This document shows positions 2,532-18,212 of a stretch of 64,000 nucleotides of DNA, piece after piece. The stretch is from a virus: IMG/VR virus record IMGVR_UViG_3300042319_001471, positions 113,640 through 177,639 of that record; one strand, written 5' to 3'. The notes under the pieces are model-generated. The model was given only the letters and a program-made list of their open reading frames with translations. It did no database searches and had not been told where the DNA came from. Position 1 is the stretch's first letter. Each line of letters starts with the position of its first letter. The translations under genes were made by a program, and so were the position numbers.

Positions 2532-3284
2532 TCAAGACAAATCAAGCCCGATTGAGTGATTTGAGCGTTCATCGATAGTTCTAACAAGATTAGCACAATC
2601 CAATAAACTAGAAAATGTGCCAACGTCGAACCAAAATCCATCCAATTTCTCAACCCCTACACCTTCTTTATCATTCATCAAACGAATCAGGTCAACGATT
2701 TCCAGTTCTCCCCTAGCAGATGGTTTTACCTTTTTAGCCATTTCCACAACTTCATTGGAAAACACGTAAAGACCAATCACAGCATCCTCTGAGATGAATT
2801 CCTTGGGTTTTTCCACAATTTGAATAATATTATCGTTTTCATCCGTTTCAACTACACCATATGCTGAAGGGTCTTTTACCTTGTAGGTGTAAATAGTGTT
2901 TGGTTGGGGATGAATGGGGGAATTGCCAATAATGACATTATCTCCAAGAATTAAGCATATTTCATCAGCATCTTTGATAAATTCCTCTCCAACAATGAAA
3001 GCATCCACCAATCCCTTTGGGGAATCTTGAATAGCGTAAGAAAGATTCAATCCGAATTTACTTCCATCTCCAAGCAGAATCTTGAATTGTTTCTGTTGAT
3101 CCTCATCGGCATTAATAATGAGAATGTCAACATATCCCATATCCTTCAGTGTTTGGAGTGGAAATGCAATGACGGGCTTATTGTATAAATTTAAAAGCTG
3201 TTTTGATATTACCTTGGTTACAGGGTAAAGACGGGTTGCCCTCCCACCCGAAAGCACAATACCACGCTTAATATTCTCTTGCAT
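2532..3284 (-). CDS. rfbA: Sugar-phosphate nucleotidyltransferase (RmlA/RfbA-like)
   Basis: Nucleotidyltransferase that would join a sugar-1-phosphate to dTTP or a related NTP. The signature loop reads GGRATRLYPVTKVISKQLL, where most RmlA proteins have GGxGTRL. Metal-site ILGDN and the EKPKE motif are present, and the C-terminal GTFSSLLDCANLV matches the family. 250 residues is slightly short for RmlA. It overlaps the RmlD-like gene upstream by 17 bases. With RmlB at 27616 it suggests a dTDP-sugar pathway; the exact sugar cannot be read. Confidence 0.88.
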   Translation of the reverse strand: MQENIKRGIVLSGGRATRLYPVTKVISKQLLNLYNKPVIAFPLQTLKDMGYVDILIINADEDQQKQFKILLGDGSKFGLNLSYAIQDSPKGLVDAFIVGEEFIKDADEICLILGDNVIIGNSPIHPQPNTIYTYKVKDPSAYGVVETDENDNIIQIVEKPKEFISEDAVIGLYVFSNEVVEMAKKVKPSARGELEIVDLIRLMNDKEGVGVEKLDGFWFDVGTFSSLLDCANLVRTIDERSNHSIGLDLS

Positions 3285-4182
3285 ATTTTTCCTCTATTTC
3301 TTGTTTGATTCTCTTGTCTTCCGCTTGTTTCTCAAGCATTTTATTGAAGCATTCTTTCATTACATCTTTCTCAAATCGCATCTCATAGATTTCCTTCGAT
3401 TTTGAGCCATCCAGAACGCAATTGCTCCTACCCGTGGCAATGGGAAGATCGGCAAGATATACGAATTTCCAATTATCGTTGTGGAAACCGTATTCTTTCA
3501 TAATATCACATACTTCCTGAGTGGTCAATGCCCCCGGATTGATGACATTGTAGATGTTCTGTCCTTTCCATTTACCGACTTTTTTAATCAAAAGATTTCT
3601 TACAAATTCGCAGAAATCGGGAATATATGTCTTGGAATTGCGGAAATTGATCAGATCGTTGTATTGTCTAATTTTGTTCAAATAATTCCTACCAGATGAT
3701 TCGTAATGGAATGGCATACGAACGCGCAGAATTATATTATCCATGGTTTTTGATAGGTTTTCAAAAGCGTGTTTGGATTTGGAGTAGAATGAAGCCCTGT
3801 TACAGAACAATCCATAATTCGGGGAATCTTCCTCACTCCACACTTTCTCATAACCATCATAAACACAACCAGATGAGATATGAAGATAATTTATATTTCT
3901 GGTATTGCATATGGCATTCACTCTTAGAGGAGATGTTGTGTTCAAATCCCAACAAAGCTCTTTTTTTTTCTCAGCTTCGTCAATATTGGGTCTTCCCGTG
4001 AATCCTGAACAATTGATCACCGTGTCAATATCATTATTGAGAAGAAATTTATGTAATGTATTTGCATTGTGGTAATCCATTTCTTTAGCCGATTGGATAA
4101 TCACGTTAAAATCATTTTTCAGATGATTGAAGAGGTGATTGCTGACGTAACCTTTTCCTAAAATTAATAAATTAAGCTTCAT
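3268..4182 (-). CDS. dTDP-4-dehydrorhamnose reductase-like SDR (RmlD-like)
   Basis: NAD(P)-dependent short-chain reductase. From the ATG at 4182 the protein is 304 residues and opens with the dinucleotide-binding loop MKLNLLILGKGYVSNHL. It has SSGCVYDG and the YxxxK pair (YSKSK). A longer frame to 4296 exists, but it overlaps the upstream gene by over 100 bases and adds no family sequence, so 4182 is preferred. The loop GKGYVSNH differs from the usual GxxGxxG. Likely acts on a nucleotide-sugar made by the neighbouring RmlA-like enzyme. Confidence 0.85.
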   Translation of the reverse strand: MKLNLLILGKGYVSNHLFNHLKNDFNVIIQSAKEMDYHNANTLHKFLLNNDIDTVINCSGFTGRPNIDEAEKKKELCWDLNTTSPLRVNAICNTRNINYLHISSGCVYDGYEKVWSEEDSPNYGLFCNRASFYSKSKHAFENLSKTMDNIILRVRMPFHYESSGRNYLNKIRQYNDLINFRNSKTYIPDFCEFVRNLLIKKVGKWKGQNIYNVINPGALTTQEVCDIMKEYGFHNDNWKFVYLADLPIATGRSNCVLDGSKSKEIYEMRFEKDVMKECFNKMLEKQAEDKRIKQEIEEKYAREY

Positions 4183-8807: not shown

Positions 8808-9164
8808 ATGAAGTCCTTTCTGGAATTTTTCGAAGAGCGCAATGGTGTGATACTTGAGTATCGACACAAGGATGGATTTGGTGACATTAAGCAATCCCTC
8901 CACGCCAATAATAAGAAGGGGGGTAATATTACCCGCGATCCCCTGACAAGAAAGATACCATGGAACAAAGGACCGTATAAGAAGATCAGAACAGCAGGAG
9001 AGATTCTGATTGGGGATGATCTGTTAAAGGAATTGGGACAACTCAATGGTGTGGAATTTAAAGATGGTAAAGAGATCAAAAGAAAAAACAGTAATCAAAT
9101 CCTAAAGCTGTTCACCAATCTCCATGGTCAACAATGTGGTAAAATCGTAGAAGTTAAAAAATAA
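8808..9164 (+). CDS. Basic protein with a capsid-targeting-like N-terminus
   Basis: 118 residues, Lys/Arg-rich. The N-terminus MKSFLEFFEERNG resembles the capsid-targeting peptide of T4 internal proteins (MKTYQEFIAE), which the prohead protease removes. A start upstream at 8793 (TTG) would lie inside the terminator tail, so ATG 8808 is used. A basic internal head protein is a reasonable inference; it could bind packaged DNA. Confidence 0.72.
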   Translation: MKSFLEFFEERNGVILEYRHKDGFGDIKQSLHANNKKGGNITRDPLTRKIPWNKGPYKKIRTAGEILIGDDLLKELGQLNGVEFKDGKEIKRKNSNQILKLFTNLHGQQCGKIVEVKK

Positions 9165-10072
9165 TGGGTTGTCCAACAATTCCACTTTCCTGTCTCACTC
9201 CTGAAAACATCTTTGCTGGTGTTTATCGCCCCAATTGCGGGGGATTTGCCGATCCTTCCAATTTCAAGGCTGAAAGAGCCATATTCAATTCCCAATTTGG
9301 GGAGCTTATCAATAATTATGGGGTGGAGATTGATTATTATGTGAACACCTTCAACCCAAAGGCAATGAACTCCATCTATGGGGAACACACTCTCATGTAT
9401 TGGCTCGGTCCAACAGTTATCAAAGCATATATCCAGATGGAGAATGCCTCCCCAATTTATGCTCTGGCTGGTATGGATTCCCCCGATACTTTGACACTCT
9501 ATTTACATATTGATGATTTTAATGTCAAATTTGCTGGACTTAGCGTATTTGATGGTGTTTTAAGAGATGAAAACAATAATCCCATATTAACGGAAGCAGG
9601 GGAGCAAATTATTATTGATCAGGAAAATGGTCCATGGGCTTGCGAACCCAAATCACAGGATAAGATCAGGGTGACACCATTTGGATGTGATAGGCCGAAT
9701 GGCAGGGGAGCCAAGATATTTGAGGTTACGGAAGCTCTGGATGAAGATGCCGCTGAACTCAATCCTGCAATGGGTCATTATGTTTGGAGATTGAAAGCTG
9801 TTCGTAGTGAGCATAACTTCACCACCAATGAACCAAGGGAAAATATGAATCATCAAATTGCTGATAATTCTTTCTTCGGTAAGCTGTCTTCCACGATGTT
9901 CCCAGAATTGACGGGAATGTATCCGGGTCTTTCGGCAGCATTTTTGTCGCTATCTTCTGTTCTGGATGATAACAAGATATACACCGAAAGTTCCGATGAA
10001 ATCGTGCAAAGGGATGTGTTTCCTCCATCCACGGGAGGTAGTGATGGTAGTGTATATGGGAATTATTTCTAA
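9164..10072 (+). CDS. Neck protein, T4 gp14-like (tentative)
   Basis: 302 residues directly upstream of the terminase, where gp14 lies in T4-like phages. The layout agrees with gp14: an early block VEIDYYVNTFNPKAMNSIYGE, then TLYLHIDDF, then KIRVTPFGCDRPNGRGAKIFEVTEA and a closing WRLKAVRSEHNF. gp14 connects the filled head to the tail. Similarity is by pattern and order only. Confidence 0.75.
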   Translation: MGCPTIPLSCLTPENIFAGVYRPNCGGFADPSNFKAERAIFNSQFGELINNYGVEIDYYVNTFNPKAMNSIYGEHTLMYWLGPTVIKAYIQMENASPIYALAGMDSPDTLTLYLHIDDFNVKFAGLSVFDGVLRDENNNPILTEAGEQIIIDQENGPWACEPKSQDKIRVTPFGCDRPNGRGAKIFEVTEALDEDAAELNPAMGHYVWRLKAVRSEHNFTTNEPRENMNHQIADNSFFGKLSSTMFPELTGMYPGLSAAFLSLSSVLDDNKIYTESSDEIVQRDVFPPSTGGSDGSVYGNYF

Positions 10073-10081
10073 ATAGGTAAT
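10070..10081 (+). promoter_or_regulatory. Late-type promoter before terminase part 1 (N6)
   Basis: TAAATA at 10070-10075 overlaps the upstream stop codon. Six bases separate it from the ATG at 10082 instead of the usual five. Confidence 0.55.
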
Positions 10082-10441
10082 ATGGGTAGGAAAAAAGATA
10101 CATATATGGGCAATCCTAATTTGCCCACAGCTAGTGCTACATTCGAATATACACCAGAGATGGTGGCTGAGATTGCCAAGTGTCGGGATGATATTTTATA
10201 TTTTGCTGAAAATTATTTCTATATCATTGAGCCGGATTTAGGTAAGATTAAAATACCGTTGTTACCATATCAGAAGCGGTTGCTGAACGCATTTAGAGAT
10301 AACAGATTTAATATTGTCAACTCATCTCGTCAATCGGGAAAATGTTTTGTTGGTGATACTAAAATAAAAATACGAAACAAAAAAACAGGTGAAATAGAAG
10401 AAGTTGAAGCTGAAAAGTTTTACAATTCTATTAAAAAATAG
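10082..10441 (+). CDS. 17: Terminase large subunit, N-extein plus N-intein (split gene, part 1)
   Basis: 119 residues. Residues 1-87 are the terminase N-terminus ending NSSRQSGK, the first part of the Walker A loop. Residues 88-119 (from 10343) are a 32-residue N-intein that opens with the catalytic Cys1 (CFVGDTKIKI) and ends at a stop. Very short N-inteins split near the N-terminus are the atypical class known from environmental TerL genes (AceL-TerL). Protein trans-splicing with the product of 11723-13585 would restore a 592-residue terminase. Without splicing, the ATPase would have no complete P-loop. Confidence 0.92.
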   Translation: MGRKKDTYMGNPNLPTASATFEYTPEMVAEIAKCRDDILYFAENYFYIIEPDLGKIKIPLLPYQKRLLNAFRDNRFNIVNSSRQSGKCFVGDTKIKIRNKKTGEIEEVEAEKFYNSIKK

Positions 10442-10463
10442 ACAAATATCTAAGCGATTAGAC

Positions 10464-10474
10464 TAAATATATAC
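10464..10474 (+). promoter_or_regulatory. Late-type promoter before the homing endonuclease
   Basis: TAAATA at 10464-10469, five bases, ATG at 10475. Confidence 0.6.
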
Positions 10475-11722
10475 ATGACGAACAAAACATGTATAATTAC
10501 TGGAAAATTATTGTCAGATGGAAAAAAGTGGAAGGGTTGTCATAGTAGAACCTTGTTTTTTATATATAAAGATAATAAATTTGATTTAGAAAAAACTAAA
10601 GAAGATGTTGAAAATAACTTGATATATATTGACGAGTATGATGAATATTATTCTTGTTGGAGAGCAGCATCCAGATCATTGGGAATGAGATACAATCTGA
10701 GTGAAGTTGATAAAATATCTCTCTATGAAAAATATTTTAAACCGAATAGTAAATGTAAAAAACATGATTGTAATAATCAAGTTCCTTATGATTTTTTGAA
10801 GTATAATACTTGTTGTTTGTTGCATTATAATCAAAATTTGAAAAGTTTAAAATTAAAAGATTTTAAATACACCTGTTTAGAAGATGGGAATACATTCACA
10901 AGAATAAATCGCTTGACTAGACACCTCAAAGGTGTGCTAAACATCGATCCAGAAGATTATTATAAAAAACATATTAAAAAATGTGATAGTGAGGGATTTT
11001 GTAAATGGTGTAAAACCCCAACACGATTTAAAAATGTGCGAGATGGATACGATAAATTTTGCTACAACACATCTTGTAATGTTTTGTGGTATAATAAACA
11101 TGAAAATCGCGCTAAAAATTGCGCTGAAAAGATTAGAAAAACACATTTAATCGGGGATCGTTTACCATCTCAAGAGGGATATTGGTTAAAACGAGGACAT
11201 ACGCAAGAGGAGGCTTATAAAAAAGTTAGAGAAACACAAGCCACCAACGCTGTTGACTCTATCATGGAAAGAAAGAAATGCTCATTGGAAGAAGCAGTTC
11301 AAATTAGAGCTGAAATAACCGATAAATGGTTGAAATCATTTAAGAGAATGAATTATTCAATGATTTCACAGAAATTGTTTGTTGAGGTTTGGAAAAGAGT
11401 GAAAGATAAATATAAAAATATTTACTTCGCAACATTAAACAATGGAGAGATTGTCAACGATGGTAAAAATCATGAGTTTAGGGTGAAAACATTTAGATCA
11501 AGTAGAAAAATAGATTTTTATATCAAAGATATTAATAAATGCATCGAATTTGACGGGACATATTGGCATGGGAAAAAAGGTAAAGGGGCTTCTGAAGAAT
11601 TATTAAGGGAAAGTGAAATAATTGGAACGTTGGGGTGTAAAGTTTTACACGTTAAAGAAAAAGATTTCAATAATGATAATGAAAAAATCATAGAAGATTG
11701 TGTAAATTTTTTAAATAGTTAA
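10475..11722 (+). CDS. Free-standing homing endonuclease, Vsr-like, inside the split terminase
   Basis: 415 residues between the two terminase halves. Several Cys/His clusters in the first 240 residues (for example CKKHDCNNQ and CKWCKTP) look like zinc-binding DNA-contact modules. The C-terminal 90 residues read KIDFYIKDINKCIEFDGTYWHG, then a conserved Glu and CKVLHVKEKDF, which fits the Vsr/PD-(D/E)XK-like nuclease described for fractured split-intein genes. It would cut intein-free terminase alleles and spread the whole arrangement. The gene is AT-richer than its neighbours, as expected of an invading element. Confidence 0.88.
   Translation: MTNKTCIITGKLLSDGKKWKGCHSRTLFFIYKDNKFDLEKTKEDVENNLIYIDEYDEYYSCWRAASRSLGMRYNLSEVDKISLYEKYFKPNSKCKKHDCNNQVPYDFLKYNTCCLLHYNQNLKSLKLKDFKYTCLEDGNTFTRINRLTRHLKGVLNIDPEDYYKKHIKKCDSEGFCKWCKTPTRFKNVRDGYDKFCYNTSCNVLWYNKHENRAKNCAEKIRKTHLIGDRLPSQEGYWLKRGHTQEEAYKKVRETQATNAVDSIMERKKCSLEEAVQIRAEITDKWLKSFKRMNYSMISQKLFVEVWKRVKDKYKNIYFATLNNGEIVNDGKNHEFRVKTFRSSRKIDFYIKDINKCIEFDGTYWHGKKGKGASEELLRESEIIGTLGCKVLHVKEKDFNNDNEKIIEDCVNFLNS
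11712..11722 (+). promoter_or_regulatory. Late-type promoter before terminase part 2
   Basis: TAAATA at 11712-11717 lies in the last codons of the homing endonuclease. Exactly five bases separate it from the ATG at 11723, so part 2 has its own leaderless promoter. Confidence 0.6.
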
Positions 11723-13585
11723 ATGGGGAAGATAATAGAAACCATAGATTTAACTGATTATGAAATCTGGACTGATTCTGGGTGGCACGACTTGACACAT
11801 CTTCATAAGACAGTTGTATATGATGTGTGGATCATAACAACCGAAAATTTTCAATTAGAATGTGCTGATGAACACATAATTTTTAAAAATTCTGATTATG
11901 AGGAAGTTTTTTGTGAGAACTTGAATATTGGTGATAATATTTGGACGGAAAACGGTCTTGAAGCGGTTTTATCAATTGTTAAGACTGATCGTAGCGAACA
12001 TATGTATGATGCGACTGTGGATAGCGAAGATCATCGAATTTTCACTAACGGTATTTTAAGTCATAATACCACATGTCTAACCATATTAGCCCTACATGAG
12101 ACTTGTTTTAAGGATTATAGAAACACTATAATCGTTGCCAACAAAGAAGACACCGCGAAAATGATTTTCAAGCGTGTTAAATTAGCATATGAGGAATTGC
12201 CCAACTGGTTGAAACCCGGAGTTAAAACATGGGGTCAGGAAAGCACCGAATTTTCAAATGGTTCAACCATCGGGATTGCAACGACAAGTAGTTCAACTGC
12301 GAGAGGAAGCACTATTCAATGCCTCTTACTTGACGAATTGGCGTGGGTTGATCCCGATAGTTTGGTGGTTGATTTCATGTCTTCTGTCCTACCAACCATC
12401 TCCAGAGCAAAAACATCTAAAATATTAATCACTTCAACTCCCAGAGGAAAAGATAATGTTTTTTATAAAATGTTTGCAGATGCGTTGAAAAAAGGAACTG
12501 ATGGGTGGAACGAATTTCACGCTGAAACGATCACTTGGGAGGAGGTTCCGGGTAGAGACGAAGCATGGAAATTGAAAGAAGTTGCTCGTTTAGGATCATA
12601 TGAATTATTTGAACAGGAATATAATTGTCATTTTGTTGACAATAGTGAATCATCGTTGGACGAAGCATTGTTCGATAAACTTAAAATCGATTGTAAATCA
12701 CCGCTCCACATCCTAAAAGACGGTAAATATAAAATATGGGAAGAATACGATCCTGAGAAAATTTATGTCATTGGGGGAGACGTTTCCGAAGGTGTTGGGT
12801 TGGATGCATCGGTTTTAGAAGTCCTTGACATCACAAACCCCAATGAAATCATACAAGTTGCGGAATATCATAATAATATGATCGGCCCATCGGAATTTAC
12901 CAATGAAGTTGTTGAAATTTGTGGGCATTGGGGAAATCCTTTGCTATTGATTGAGCGCAACAACCAAGGAACCGGAGTATGTGATACCTTGGCAAATACA
13001 CATATGTATCAGAATCTTGTGTCTTGGGGAGCCAAGGAAGCGCATAAGAACAAGCAGAATGGTATGATTTCCCACATCAATACCAAATACAAAGCGGTTC
13101 TCAACCAGAGATATTTTGTTAATGAAGCGCAATCCGTGGTATTCCGCAACATCGACACCCTGAAAGAGTTCAAGATGTTTGTGCGATACCCAAATGGCTC
13201 TTGGAAAGCCAAAAGCGGGGAACATGATGACCGTGTGATGGCATTTGTGTGGGCATTGATGGCTCTTTACAAGGATATAACTGAATTGTATTTTGAAGTT
13301 GAGGAACTGGATGATTGTGATAAACCTTTACGCATAAAACCCATCGATCAGGGACTTCACCAATACAGATCATCCACATCCATATACACGAATGAAGAGG
13401 TTGACAAGATTGAACACTCCAATATCTCTCCCATGCTCTTCGGAGGATTTGGGGGTGCTGCTGTCAGCGACATGGCGGAATTGGAAGCTGCGGGTTGGGC
13501 TTTACCAGATCATTCGGTGTTCTCCAATCCCGAAAGGAATATCTCTTCCGATCAATGGGCAGCAATGGAGAAATATTTCGGTTGA
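11723..13585 (+). CDS. 17: Terminase large subunit, C-intein plus C-extein (split gene, part 2)
   Basis: 620 residues. Residues 1-115 are the C-intein, with block-B-like ADEH and the C-terminal splice block FTNGILSHN. The C-extein begins at 12068 with Thr +1 (TTCLTILALHE) and completes the Walker A loop as SRQSGK/TT. Then come Walker B LLLDELAW, the coupling motif ITSTPRG, and RNase-H-like nuclease acidic residues in VIGGDVSEG, LLIERNNQG and HDDRVMAF. This is the packaging motor ATPase and headful nuclease. Confidence 0.95.
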   Translation: MGKIIETIDLTDYEIWTDSGWHDLTHLHKTVVYDVWIITTENFQLECADEHIIFKNSDYEEVFCENLNIGDNIWTENGLEAVLSIVKTDRSEHMYDATVDSEDHRIFTNGILSHNTTCLTILALHETCFKDYRNTIIVANKEDTAKMIFKRVKLAYEELPNWLKPGVKTWGQESTEFSNGSTIGIATTSSSTARGSTIQCLLLDELAWVDPDSLVVDFMSSVLPTISRAKTSKILITSTPRGKDNVFYKMFADALKKGTDGWNEFHAETITWEEVPGRDEAWKLKEVARLGSYELFEQEYNCHFVDNSESSLDEALFDKLKIDCKSPLHILKDGKYKIWEEYDPEKIYVIGGDVSEGVGLDASVLEVLDITNPNEIIQVAEYHNNMIGPSEFTNEVVEICGHWGNPLLLIERNNQGTGVCDTLANTHMYQNLVSWGAKEAHKNKQNGMISHINTKYKAVLNQRYFVNEAQSVVFRNIDTLKEFKMFVRYPNGSWKAKSGEHDDRVMAFVWALMALYKDITELYFEVEELDDCDKPLRIKPIDQGLHQYRSSTSIYTNEEVDKIEHSNISPMLFGGFGGAAVSDMAELEAAGWALPDHSVFSNPERNISSDQWAAMEKYFG

Positions 13586-13615
13586 TTTTGTGTGTTTTCA
13601 TGCTAACGTGAAAGT

Positions 13616-14122
13616 GTGAAATGTTATGAAAATTACATCACCGATCTAAAAGATGATGAAGTGTTTGTGTTCACTTCGAATTTATTGGGGTGGCACGGGG
13701 CCGGATCAGCGGGATATGCATCTTTTGGAGAAATTGGTAACGTTTGGAGAAAATACGATTACCATTTAAAAGAGAATGGGTGGAAAGGTCGATGGAATGT
13801 GAAGGGTTGTGCTGAAGGTATCCAAGAAGGGCGAGAGGGTAAATCATATGCAATCCCATCCGTCACGAAAGCGGGAGCCAAACGATCCATACCAAAAAAA
13901 CAATTAAAACAAAATATCCAAAGGTTTTACCGATTTGCGGAGAATAATCCAAAGTGGAAATTCTATGTCGCGCAGGATGCGAAGTTGGGATATAATGGTT
14001 ATGATGTGGATGAAATGGTGGAAATGTGGGCAGTTGAATATCCTCCCGATAATGTTTATTTTTATAAACCATTCTATGATCTGTTAAAGGAGCGTTTCCC
14101 ATTAAATATGTTTAGTGAGTAA
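13616..14122 (+). CDS. A1S_2505-like / macro-fold-like phage protein
   Basis: 168 residues with a GTG start. The pattern FVFTSNLLGWHGAGSAGYA followed by GKSYAIPSV and a C-terminal GYNGYDVDEM block matches a small family of phage and plasmid proteins that look related to macro domains, which bind ADP-ribose-like ligands. The biochemical role is not known to me. It lies between terminase and a tube gene and overlaps the next gene by eight bases. Confidence 0.75.
   Translation: MKCYENYITDLKDDEVFVFTSNLLGWHGAGSAGYASFGEIGNVWRKYDYHLKENGWKGRWNVKGCAEGIQEGREGKSYAIPSVTKAGAKRSIPKKQLKQNIQRFYRFAENNPKWKFYVAQDAKLGYNGYDVDEMVEMWAVEYPPDNVYFYKPFYDLLKERFPLNMFSE
14103..14114 (+). promoter_or_regulatory. Late-type promoter TAAATA-N6-GTG
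   Basis: TAAATA at 14103-14108, six bases, GTG at 14115; it lies within the upstream gene and supports the GTG start. Confidence 0.45.
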
Positions 14123-14723
14123 TACAGAGGTCCGACAATCGTTCTTAAATCGCAGCAGGAAGGATAAATTCCTTCTCGTTTTCGATTTGCCCCCAATTTT
14201 AAAGAGAATCCAATCCAATTACACAAGGAATGACAATACCATCATTCCCGATAGTGTGCAATTCAGCATCTATGGGACGATGGTTCCGGGATTGACCATT
14301 AAAGCGATTGCCACCCGATATGCGGGAGATACGCTTTATGTGTCAAGCCATAGCAAAGACCCTTATCCTCCCGTAAATGTCAAATTCAAAGTGGATAGCG
14401 GATATAATAATTATTGGGTAATTTACCAATGGCTGAATCTACAACATGACCAAAAGACGGGTCAATTCAATGAAAAGGGTATTATAGTGGATGGTAATTT
14501 TTCGGATTATCAGACGGATATTACGATGTATGGATTGGATGAATATGATAATAAAGTAATTCAATTTAAATATACGAAAGCTTTTGTAACATCAATCGAT
14601 GAATTAGCATTCTCTCAGAATGAGACGGGTGAAATGGAGATTGAAAGCGGATTTACTTTTGTTTTCTCACAAATGCACATCAATTTACTGGGATGTGATA
14701 GATATAATCAGACTCTGAGTTGA
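14115..14723 (+). CDS. Tail-tube-fold protein (T4 gp19/gp54-like)
   Basis: 202 residues. The second half (DITMYGLDEYDNKVIQF...ELAFSQNETGEMEIESGFTF) lines up by eye with the end of T4 gp19. The first half has SIYGTMVPGLTIKAIATRYAGD. It is one of three tube-like proteins here (also 18224 and 18821); this one may be a terminator or initiator disc. Its place just before the sheath gene agrees with a tail role. Confidence 0.75.
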   Translation: MSNTEVRQSFLNRSRKDKFLLVFDLPPILKRIQSNYTRNDNTIIPDSVQFSIYGTMVPGLTIKAIATRYAGDTLYVSSHSKDPYPPVNVKFKVDSGYNNYWVIYQWLNLQHDQKTGQFNEKGIIVDGNFSDYQTDITMYGLDEYDNKVIQFKYTKAFVTSIDELAFSQNETGEMEIESGFTFVFSQMHINLLGCDRYNQTLS

Positions 14724-17450: not shown

Positions 17451-18212
17451 ATGTCCACTACTATCGACAATATAGGAGTTCCTACTGATTATAAAAAATC
17501 CCCAGCAATTTATATTTTCAGAAATAATATAAATGATAAATTTTATATCGGAGAAACATTAAATCTAAAACAGCGAATGTATTCGTATTGTCGTCTTAAA
17601 AAAGAAAACAGACCAATAATTAAAGCTATTAGAAAATACGGTATTGAAAATTTTTCATTTGAATATTATTTTTTTCCAAATTTTACAAAAGATGATTTGA
17701 TAAAATTGGAAGAAGAAATGATTAAAAAATATAAAAGTTCTGTATTTGAAAATGGTTATAATATATGGATAAAGGGTCAAAATAGGAGAGGTGCGACACA
17801 TTCTGAAGAATCTCGTAAAAGAAGAAGTGAAATTTTTAAAGGGAGGATTATCACAAAAGAGTGGAGGGAGAATATTTCCAAATCTAAAAGGGGTGAAAAA
17901 CATCCAATGTATGGTAAAAAATTATCAGAGGAAACAAAGAAAAAAATGGGAGATTCGCGTAGAGGTGAGAGAAATGGTAGATATGGTAAAAAAACATCCA
18001 ATGAACATAAAAATAAATTAATGATGAATCGGAAAGATCGTATAGAAGTGGAGCAATATACGAAATGTGGTGAGTTTATTGGAAGATATCCATCAATTAG
18101 AGAAGCAGCAAGACAAACTGGAATAGATAGTAGATATATTAATCCAGTTTGTGATAAAATTGGGAGAAGTGCTAAAGGATATATTTGGAAAAAAGTGATA
18201 CCAAATGACTAA
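17451..18212 (+). CDS. GIY-YIG homing endonuclease (SegA-like)
   Basis: 253 residues. The GIY-YIG nuclease is at residues 18-90 (AIYIFRNN...KFYIGETLNLKQR, with Ala for the first Gly; catalytic Arg and a later Glu present). NUMOD3-type DNA-binding repeats follow (THSEESRKRRSE, HPMYGKKLSEETKKKM, NGRYGKKTSNEHKNKL), then a C-terminal NUMOD1-like helix-turn-helix (YPSIREAARQTGI). It sits between sheath and tube genes with its own promoter. Its AT-rich codon use marks it as a selfish insertion. Confidence 0.92.
   Translation: MSTTIDNIGVPTDYKKSPAIYIFRNNINDKFYIGETLNLKQRMYSYCRLKKENRPIIKAIRKYGIENFSFEYYFFPNFTKDDLIKLEEEMIKKYKSSVFENGYNIWIKGQNRRGATHSEESRKRRSEIFKGRIITKEWRENISKSKRGEKHPMYGKKLSEETKKKMGDSRRGERNGRYGKKTSNEHKNKLMMNRKDRIEVEQYTKCGEFIGRYPSIREAARQTGIDSRYINPVCDKIGRSAKGYIWKKVIPND

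Follow-up and report, generated by a model that had tools for sequence, protein, structure and literature searches.

Structure of the divided terminase locus

The window analysed here, a stretch of 64,000 nucleotides, comprises bases 113640–177639 of the 177,639-base IMG/VR virus record IMGVR_UViG_3300042319_001471. Three consecutive open reading frames (ORFs) on its plus strand, at 10082–10441, 10475–11722, and 11723–13585, hold the phage terminase TerL, an intein in two parts (IntN and IntC), and a free-standing homing endonuclease-like gene between them. ORF 1 (119 amino acids [aa]) consists of 87 aa of TerL followed by the 32-aa IntN, which starts CFVGDT; ORF 3 (620 aa) begins with the 115-aa IntC, ending GILSHN, and continues with 505 aa of TerL starting TTCLTI. 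The break point in TerL lies between the Lys and Thr of the Walker A motif (SRQSGK^TT), and the predicted spliced terminase would be 592 aa long (87 + 505), the uninterrupted terminases of relatives being 585–588 aa. Both extein halves are recognised as terminase, with PHROG family matches of 4e-28 before the break and 3e-44 after it; the corresponding Pfam matches are to Terminase_6N (2e-14) and Terminase_6C (2e-6).

A preliminary description of this DNA had reported a P-loop split as SRQSGK/TT over two genes, with a 32-residue N-intein from Cys1 closing part 1, a 115-residue C-intein ending SHN before Thr+1 at the start of part 2, and a product of about 592 residues. Its coordinates and frames proved exact, the translations of ORF 1 and ORF 3 agree with its intein parts and product length, and the relatives with uninterrupted terminases that it proposed should be sought were found.

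The same arrangement occurs on 11 further IMG/VR contigs with 11 other metagenome identifiers, some of which perhaps come from related samples, so that these are not 11 fully independent observations. Five match the window base for base throughout the 3,504-base locus, flanks included; the other six are identical over the part that they cover, except for three bases at one contig end. Diverged relatives (loci L008, L058, L082–L086, L088, and L089) possess all parts in the same order with the frames open. The ATG of the IntC–TerL frame directly follows the endonuclease stop, and in relatives this junction often overlaps by 4–26 bases. No terminase relative was present in the GTDB genome contigs scanned.

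Table 1. Features of the divided terminase locus, in window coordinates.
Feature	Coordinates	Strand	Basis
TerL N-extein, 87 aa, ending SSRQSGK (Walker A through the invariant Lys)	10082..10342	+	phrog_5989, 4e-28
IntN, 32 aa (CFVGDTKIKIRNKKTGEIEEVEAEKFYNSIKK) and stop; Cys1, block A	10343..10441	+	translation; same element in relatives
AT-rich gap of 33 bases, IntN stop to endonuclease start	10442..10474	+	
Free-standing homing endonuclease-like gene, 415 aa; Cys/His zinc-finger-like middle, Vsr/EDxHD-type C terminus	10475..11722	+	
Putative endonuclease catalytic domain, approx. residues 316–415; conserved E334, D347, E358, H365, and E395	11420..11719	+	11 homologues; I-Bth0305I/Vsr fold match
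IntC, 115 aa; block B CADEH; blocks F and G MYD...H...NGILSHN (penultimate His, terminal Asn)	11723..12067	+	
TerL C-extein, 505 aa, starting at Thr+1 (TTCLTI...): remaining ATPase and RNase H-like nuclease	12068..13585	+	

The intein and its resident endonuclease

In a PDB search with the IntC sequence alone, VidaL (6vgv) and CatC (6dsl), a consensus atypical intein, ranked best, and a profile of 12 sequences matched the same two with expectation values (E) of 5.5e-14 and 9e-11, respectively. The AF2 model of IntC (predicted local distance difference test score [pLDDT] 90, predicted template modelling score [pTM] 0.77) again matches VidaL best (template modelling [TM] score 0.81, root mean square deviation 1.2 Å) and has 40 PDB matches at E ≤ 0.001, the top ones being inteins; its modelled fold is a Hint fold. 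The residues of a class 1 intein are in place (C1; H51, D96, H114, and N115 of IntC; Thr+1), and splice-critical residues are present in all 10 aligned fractured loci with an insertion at the P-loop, here termed site 1. Few parts of the element are under constraint as strong as that on IntC, which has a nonsynonymous divergence (dN) of about 0.02–0.06 and a synonymous divergence (dS) of 0.17–0.88.

Since blocks B, N4, F, and G all lie on IntC, the split occurs well upstream of where inteins usually carry their endonuclease. The 32/115 split of the window falls within the range of N-terminally split inteins (IntN of about 15–37 aa), and IntN is 31–62 aa long in most relatives. Collectively, these data support the window intein as an atypically split class 1 intein whose splicing is predicted; the preliminary description, which proposed a profile search of the intein parts, had likewise called the split atypical. 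The Pfam intein family PF14890 matched nothing across the genome because its model misses this P-loop intein. Support in an intein tree covering sites 1–4 was too weak to order the sites, and the tree is relied on for near relatives only.

The C terminus of the 415-aa protein matches I-Bth0305I (3r3p; Foldseek probability 0.99, TMt 0.60) and Vsr (1vsr; probability 0.66) in fold; the sequence match to I-Bth0305I has an E of 0.03–0.06, and a match to PF18741 falls under that family's cut-off. The fold reading rests on this C-terminal domain, since the model of the whole protein is of moderate quality. The catalytic-type residues listed in Table 1 are invariant across 11 homologues, and dN/dS between close relatives is about 0.13–0.26 (0.06/0.26 and 0.08/0.35, for example), a low ratio that fits a working gene. 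PHROGs holds no family matching the protein. Its PD-(D/E)XK-Vsr-type fold and residues support a putative Vsr/EDxHD-like homing endonuclease, in keeping with the Vsr-like assignment made earlier.

Homing endonuclease genes of another type also occur in this genome, about four being GIY-YIG-type (phrog_314): one lies at window positions 17451–18212 and others at G000:22870, 31822, and 59103, and one of the set is located just downstream of the tail sheath gene.

Allelic states, mobility, and host genes

Within one TerL lineage, the P-loop site is found fractured with an endonuclease (L008), filled by a contiguous intein (L019, L020, and L040), or empty (L024), and the DNA around it is closely similar in all of these: the nearest left flank is 96%–100% identical and the C-terminal TerL part 91%–100% per 150-base bin. 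The contiguous intein of L019, L020, and L040 is unrelated, 356 aa long, begins with Ala1, is inserted at the same base, and contains LAGLIDADG-like stretches by eye. The empty P-loops nearest to the window are those of L011, L026, L046, and L047, with DNA 77%–87% identical, and all four carry an intein at a second TerL site, GSTIQ^C. Among Campylobacter phages, the site is empty in CC_R7, occupied by a contiguous intein in CP220 and others, and fractured in F379 and CJLB-13, where the endonuclease ORF sits in the linker after IntN; CC_R7, CP220, and F379 each yield a 599-aa terminase. Outside the insert, CP220 and F379 are identical at 496 of 502 and 1666 of 1715 bases.

Nuclease-free forms are also found. 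Phages PhiW-14 and Atu_ph07 have a split TerL intein with no endonuclease, and Ackermannviridae phages have a contiguous intein with a variable linker at the place where the window intein splits. The endonuclease is lost, and a split or contiguous intein kept, in PhiW-14, Atu_ph07, L173, and L168. L168 equals L167 minus exactly 687 bases, in-frame, of the endonuclease ORF, and its linker consists of the two ends of the L167 endonuclease gene, start and end, both read out of frame, so that nuclease loss is visible base by base.

Further arrangements at the P-loop site were noted. In L116 (2756–4966), L167 (2813–5632), and L169, the endonuclease gene is nested out of frame within a continuous TerL–intein ORF (L116:3081–3995; L167:3156–3995). 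In Delftia phage PhiW-14 (L065, about 2961–3440), the N-terminal TerL part and IntN are unannotated, and the annotated terminase begins inside the intein. Agrobacterium phage Atu_ph07 (L066, 2965–5156) has Ser1 (GK^SVHKSTD) and Thr+1, and may represent a cysteine-independent atypical split intein. Between the endonuclease and the IntC–TerL ORF of L138 is a short ORF (1374–2057) that resembles a terminase ATPase and has an intact P-loop (PRQMGKTLLEII); no IntN was found at this locus.

At four-fold degenerate sites, the element was compared with its host gene in seven pairs. Divergence was significantly lower in the element than in TerL in three of them, at 0.30 versus 0.56 (p = 2e-4), 0.14 versus 0.31 (p = 3e-4), and 0.34 versus 0.51 (p = 0.004). 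The intein ends of L167 and L168 (first 90 and last 310 bases) are 100% identical, their TerL genes 76%–88%; likewise, the intein ends of L183 and L185 are 92% and 99% identical versus 59%–73%. Comparison among loci thereby shows the P-loop element to be mobile, its site being polymorphic and its DNA having crossed between diverged TerL genes. In L134 and L135, IntC is 99.7% and the left flank 97.8% identical, IntN 58% and the right flank 86%, a pattern indicative of a mosaic breakpoint within the element.

A scan that used only IntC, with no host-gene anchor, recovered at least 473 related IMG/VR loci, of which the best 80 were examined. Among these 80, the junction is [GS]K^C wherever IntN was also located, the +1 residue is Thr or Ser throughout, and the state most often found is a split intein with a Vsr-like endonuclease. 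Extein clustering gave about 51 groups: 38–39 of TerL, 7–8 of gp46/SbcC, 4 of a DnaB-like helicase, and 1 of a clamp loader. The truncated locus L170 received the automatic label TerL although its junction is that of gp46. In the examples checked, matches were to DnaB_C at four loci (1e-13 to 3e-6), to the SbcC-like phrog_77 (3e-89), with an SbcD-like gene upstream in L155 (2e-62), and to the clamp loader phrog_168 (1e-36). The carriers other than TerL (gp46/SbcC, DnaB-like helicase, and clamp loader: L155, L129, L154, L157, L163, L186, and L150) mostly have a Vsr-like endonuclease between the halves. The preliminary description had stressed that split intein and endonuclease occur together; their co-occurrence is real but is not peculiar to the window phage, being that of a widespread IMG/VR family which has also entered other P-loop ATPases.

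One terminase gene (L084:73–5467, IMGVR_UViG_3300044971_004217) has four inteins at four sites: the split P-loop with a Vsr-like endonuclease, a contiguous intein at SLN^CVMVDE, a split intein without endonuclease at DECAFIE^, and a contiguous intein at QEFNN^C. With two different split inteins, this TerL would need assembly from three polypeptides. L083 (3562–7838) has three inteins, the split P-loop and two contiguous ones further on, and the terminases of L131 and L133 also run into further inteins. The second site, GSTIQ^CLLLDE, is broken by a split intein in L011 (901–4045), L034 (4408–7581), L046, and L047, the IntC of which ends SKN, not SHN; the L011 endonuclease there is GIY-YIG-type (phrog_314, 2e-40), and that of L034 looks alike. 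At the second site of L026 (2681–5501), a different endonuclease-like sequence shares one 940-aa frame with IntC and the C-terminal TerL part; this frame overlaps the ORF of the N-terminal part and IntN, and its intein ends in Gln (SHQ) in place of Asn.

Origin of the element, alternatives, and known systems

We consider it highly probable that the locus is a selfish three-part element in TerL, combining trans-splicing, homing, and mobility, with its endonuclease in the linker after IntN. The TerL–IntN and IntC–TerL proteins would be made separately, and the 32-aa IntN would dock into IntC, the Hint fold of which is nearly complete. Class 1 trans-splicing (Cys1, IntC Asn115, and Thr+1) would then join Lys87 to Thr, thereby restoring Walker A and a 592-aa terminase. 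In a co-infected cell, the Vsr/EDxHD-like endonuclease would cut intein-less TerL at the P-loop codons, with subsequent repair copying the whole element, and the endonuclease would drive spread.

The endonuclease gene lies in the linker after IntN, away from the canonical endonuclease site, and its insertion there may fracture a contiguous intein, as suggested by CP220 versus F379. Subsequent loss would leave the intein either split and nuclease-free or contiguous, in the latter case as a mini-intein with a relic linker (L168). Such gain and loss would account for atypical split positions. That insertion of a linker nuclease makes the atypical split is partly shown by CP220/F379, L120/L058, and L168/L167, with the direction unproven in the first two pairs. 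On a broader scale, we somewhat favour the existence of a mobile intein family specialised for the Walker A GK^T/S junction in at least four unrelated phage ATPases (TerL, gp46/SbcC, DnaB-like helicase, and clamp loader), with its endonuclease ORF, separate or out of frame, located in the N-terminal (S1-like) linker and not at the canonical site; the gain and loss of this ORF would cycle contiguous, fractured, and nuclease-free split forms and would be the origin of atypically split inteins.

Several observations weigh against the reading of the locus as a selfish three-part element. The block B Thr of most inteins is Ala here (ADEH), although VidaL reads AFNH at this block. The model of the whole endonuclease is moderate (pLDDT 72, pTM 0.35), and its sequence match in the PDB is weak (E 0.03). 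The remaining four of the seven four-fold comparisons, which run in the same direction, are singly non-significant (p = 0.06, 0.06, 0.09, and 0.31). As GC content is 24%–34% in the element and 37%–41% in TerL, an AT-rich element could possibly depress apparent synonymous divergence; however, pairs with similar host divergence (0.56–0.58) differ in element divergence (0.30 versus 0.48), which counts against this confounder. Lastly, the P-loop is conserved in DNA, and shared insertion sites could therefore be partly convergent.

The halves might alternatively be rejoined in RNA, the insert being an endonuclease-bearing group I or II intron as in ICP1 terL, and RNA introns, with endonuclease genes nearby, are indeed known from phage terL genes (PMC10448857). 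An intron was rejected, and is extremely improbable, because no Rfam family, introns included, matches positions 9000–14500 at E ≤ 1, both sides of the break encode a conserved intein under amino-acid constraint that an intron would not need, and in relatives the P-loop site holds a single intein ORF, in frame and uninterrupted. A metagenome-derived contig in which a short N-terminal ORF precedes unrelated-looking sequence may also raise suspicion of an assembly chimera, which the preliminary description had named as grounds for abandoning its reading, or of a decaying pseudogene. The chimera was rejected on the agreement of the 11 further contigs, five of them over the full locus with flanks, and with order and open frames kept in diverged homologues we give either explanation practically no credence. 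It is, in addition, very improbable that the TerL pieces cooperate without covalent joining, the intein parts being relics: splitting of a phage ribonucleotide reductase by a homing endonuclease has been reported (cited in PMC10448857), but a free end between the Lys and Thr of Walker A would be expected to destroy ATP binding, and both the intact splice-critical residues and the constraint on IntC argue for joining.

Trans-splicing could be real while the endonuclease no longer homes, having become a passenger or acquired another role in a fixed intein. The retention of inteins after nuclease loss in PhiW-14, Atu_ph07, L173, and L168 fits such a state, as does the near identity of the 11 other copies of the window element, which give no direct sign of recent spread. 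We nevertheless consider it unlikely, since the endonuclease ORF is intact and under purifying selection in relatives, its catalytic-type residues are conserved, and empty alleles still exist among very close relatives of one lineage. Conditional splicing reported for other inteins (PMC6195587 and PMC5790916) has a possible counterpart in a regulatory switch, kept for its benefit, that delays packaging until both halves of the motor accumulate. Such a switch is distinctly improbable given that many close relatives (including L009, L010, and L024) have an uninterrupted terminase and that the element is distributed as a mobile parasite would be.

The comparison also shows one selfish element with a common target in several phage motors, the Walker A loop. 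To our knowledge, the natural N-terminal splitting of some inteins has so far had no clear natural history. Here, DNA from before and after a change can be paired (empty, contiguous, fractured, and nuclease lost), including a pair from culturable Campylobacter phages, so that direct tests of how atypical splitting arose and of the homing route are possible. For peptide labelling, the short IntN (about 30 aa) is a candidate tool.

Already known are fractured genes, TerL inteins with an atypical split, and TerL inteins at the P-loop (PMC5050341), and inteins have been reported with the endonuclease at one conserved position (PMC6801210). The literature searched, outside which lie Dassa 2009, Thiel 2014, and Bachmann 2015, contains no description of the combination at this site, of a family-wide N-terminal location of the endonuclease gene, or of spread through several P-loop ATPases; nor does it state whether an endonuclease is present at the AceL-TerL and GOS-TerL loci.

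The fractured-gene inteins of Dassa and colleagues are reportedly split at the canonical endonuclease (S0) position, into parts of about 90 and 40 aa. Unlike these, the window intein breaks near its N terminus, at 32/115. The loci are alike in having an essential gene divided over two ORFs with intein halves and a free-standing Vsr-like endonuclease between them (Dassa et al. 2009, doi 10.1093/nar/gkp095; cited via PMC6892783). A published isolate with such a fractured gene is Pseudomonas phage MIJ3, whose DNA polymerase B has blocks A, N2, B, and N4 together on the N side of the split (PMC6892783), whereas B and N4 are on IntC in the window. MIJ3 carries a homologue of the endonuclease that is 27% identical.

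AceL-TerL and GOS-TerL are inserted at QEx^C, after the ATPase core, and inteins at QEx^C-like sites were found in L083 and L084. The window intein shares a short IntN and a long IntC with AceL-TerL (25/104 aa), GOS-TerL (37/115 aa; PMC11766414), Cat, and VidaL; its IntC is homologous to those of VidaL and Cat in sequence and fold, and, as in AceL-TerL and GOS-TerL, the host protein is TerL. The parallel with AceL-TerL drawn in the preliminary description therefore stands as a relationship but not as identity, since AceL and GOS have Cys+1 (PMC11766414) and the window intein, at Walker A GK^TT, belongs to a family with Thr or Ser at +1.

The TerL1-a inteins of mycobacteriophages (PMC5050341, in which split inteins are not mentioned) are also P-loop TerL inteins, in Terminase_1 proteins. 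With respect to the endonuclease, the C-terminal catalytic domain is predicted to share the fold of I-Bth0305I (3R3P) and Vsr, unlike which it follows about 300 additional N-terminal residues containing Cys/His clusters that resemble zinc fingers. The TerL mini-inteins of Ackermannviridae (Klebsiella phage Magnus, annotated at 159 aa, as well as Kuja, CBA120, and LIMEstone) occupy the same insertion site as the window intein, with IntC about 39%–46% and TerL about 31% identical, and differ from it in being contiguous and free of an endonuclease.

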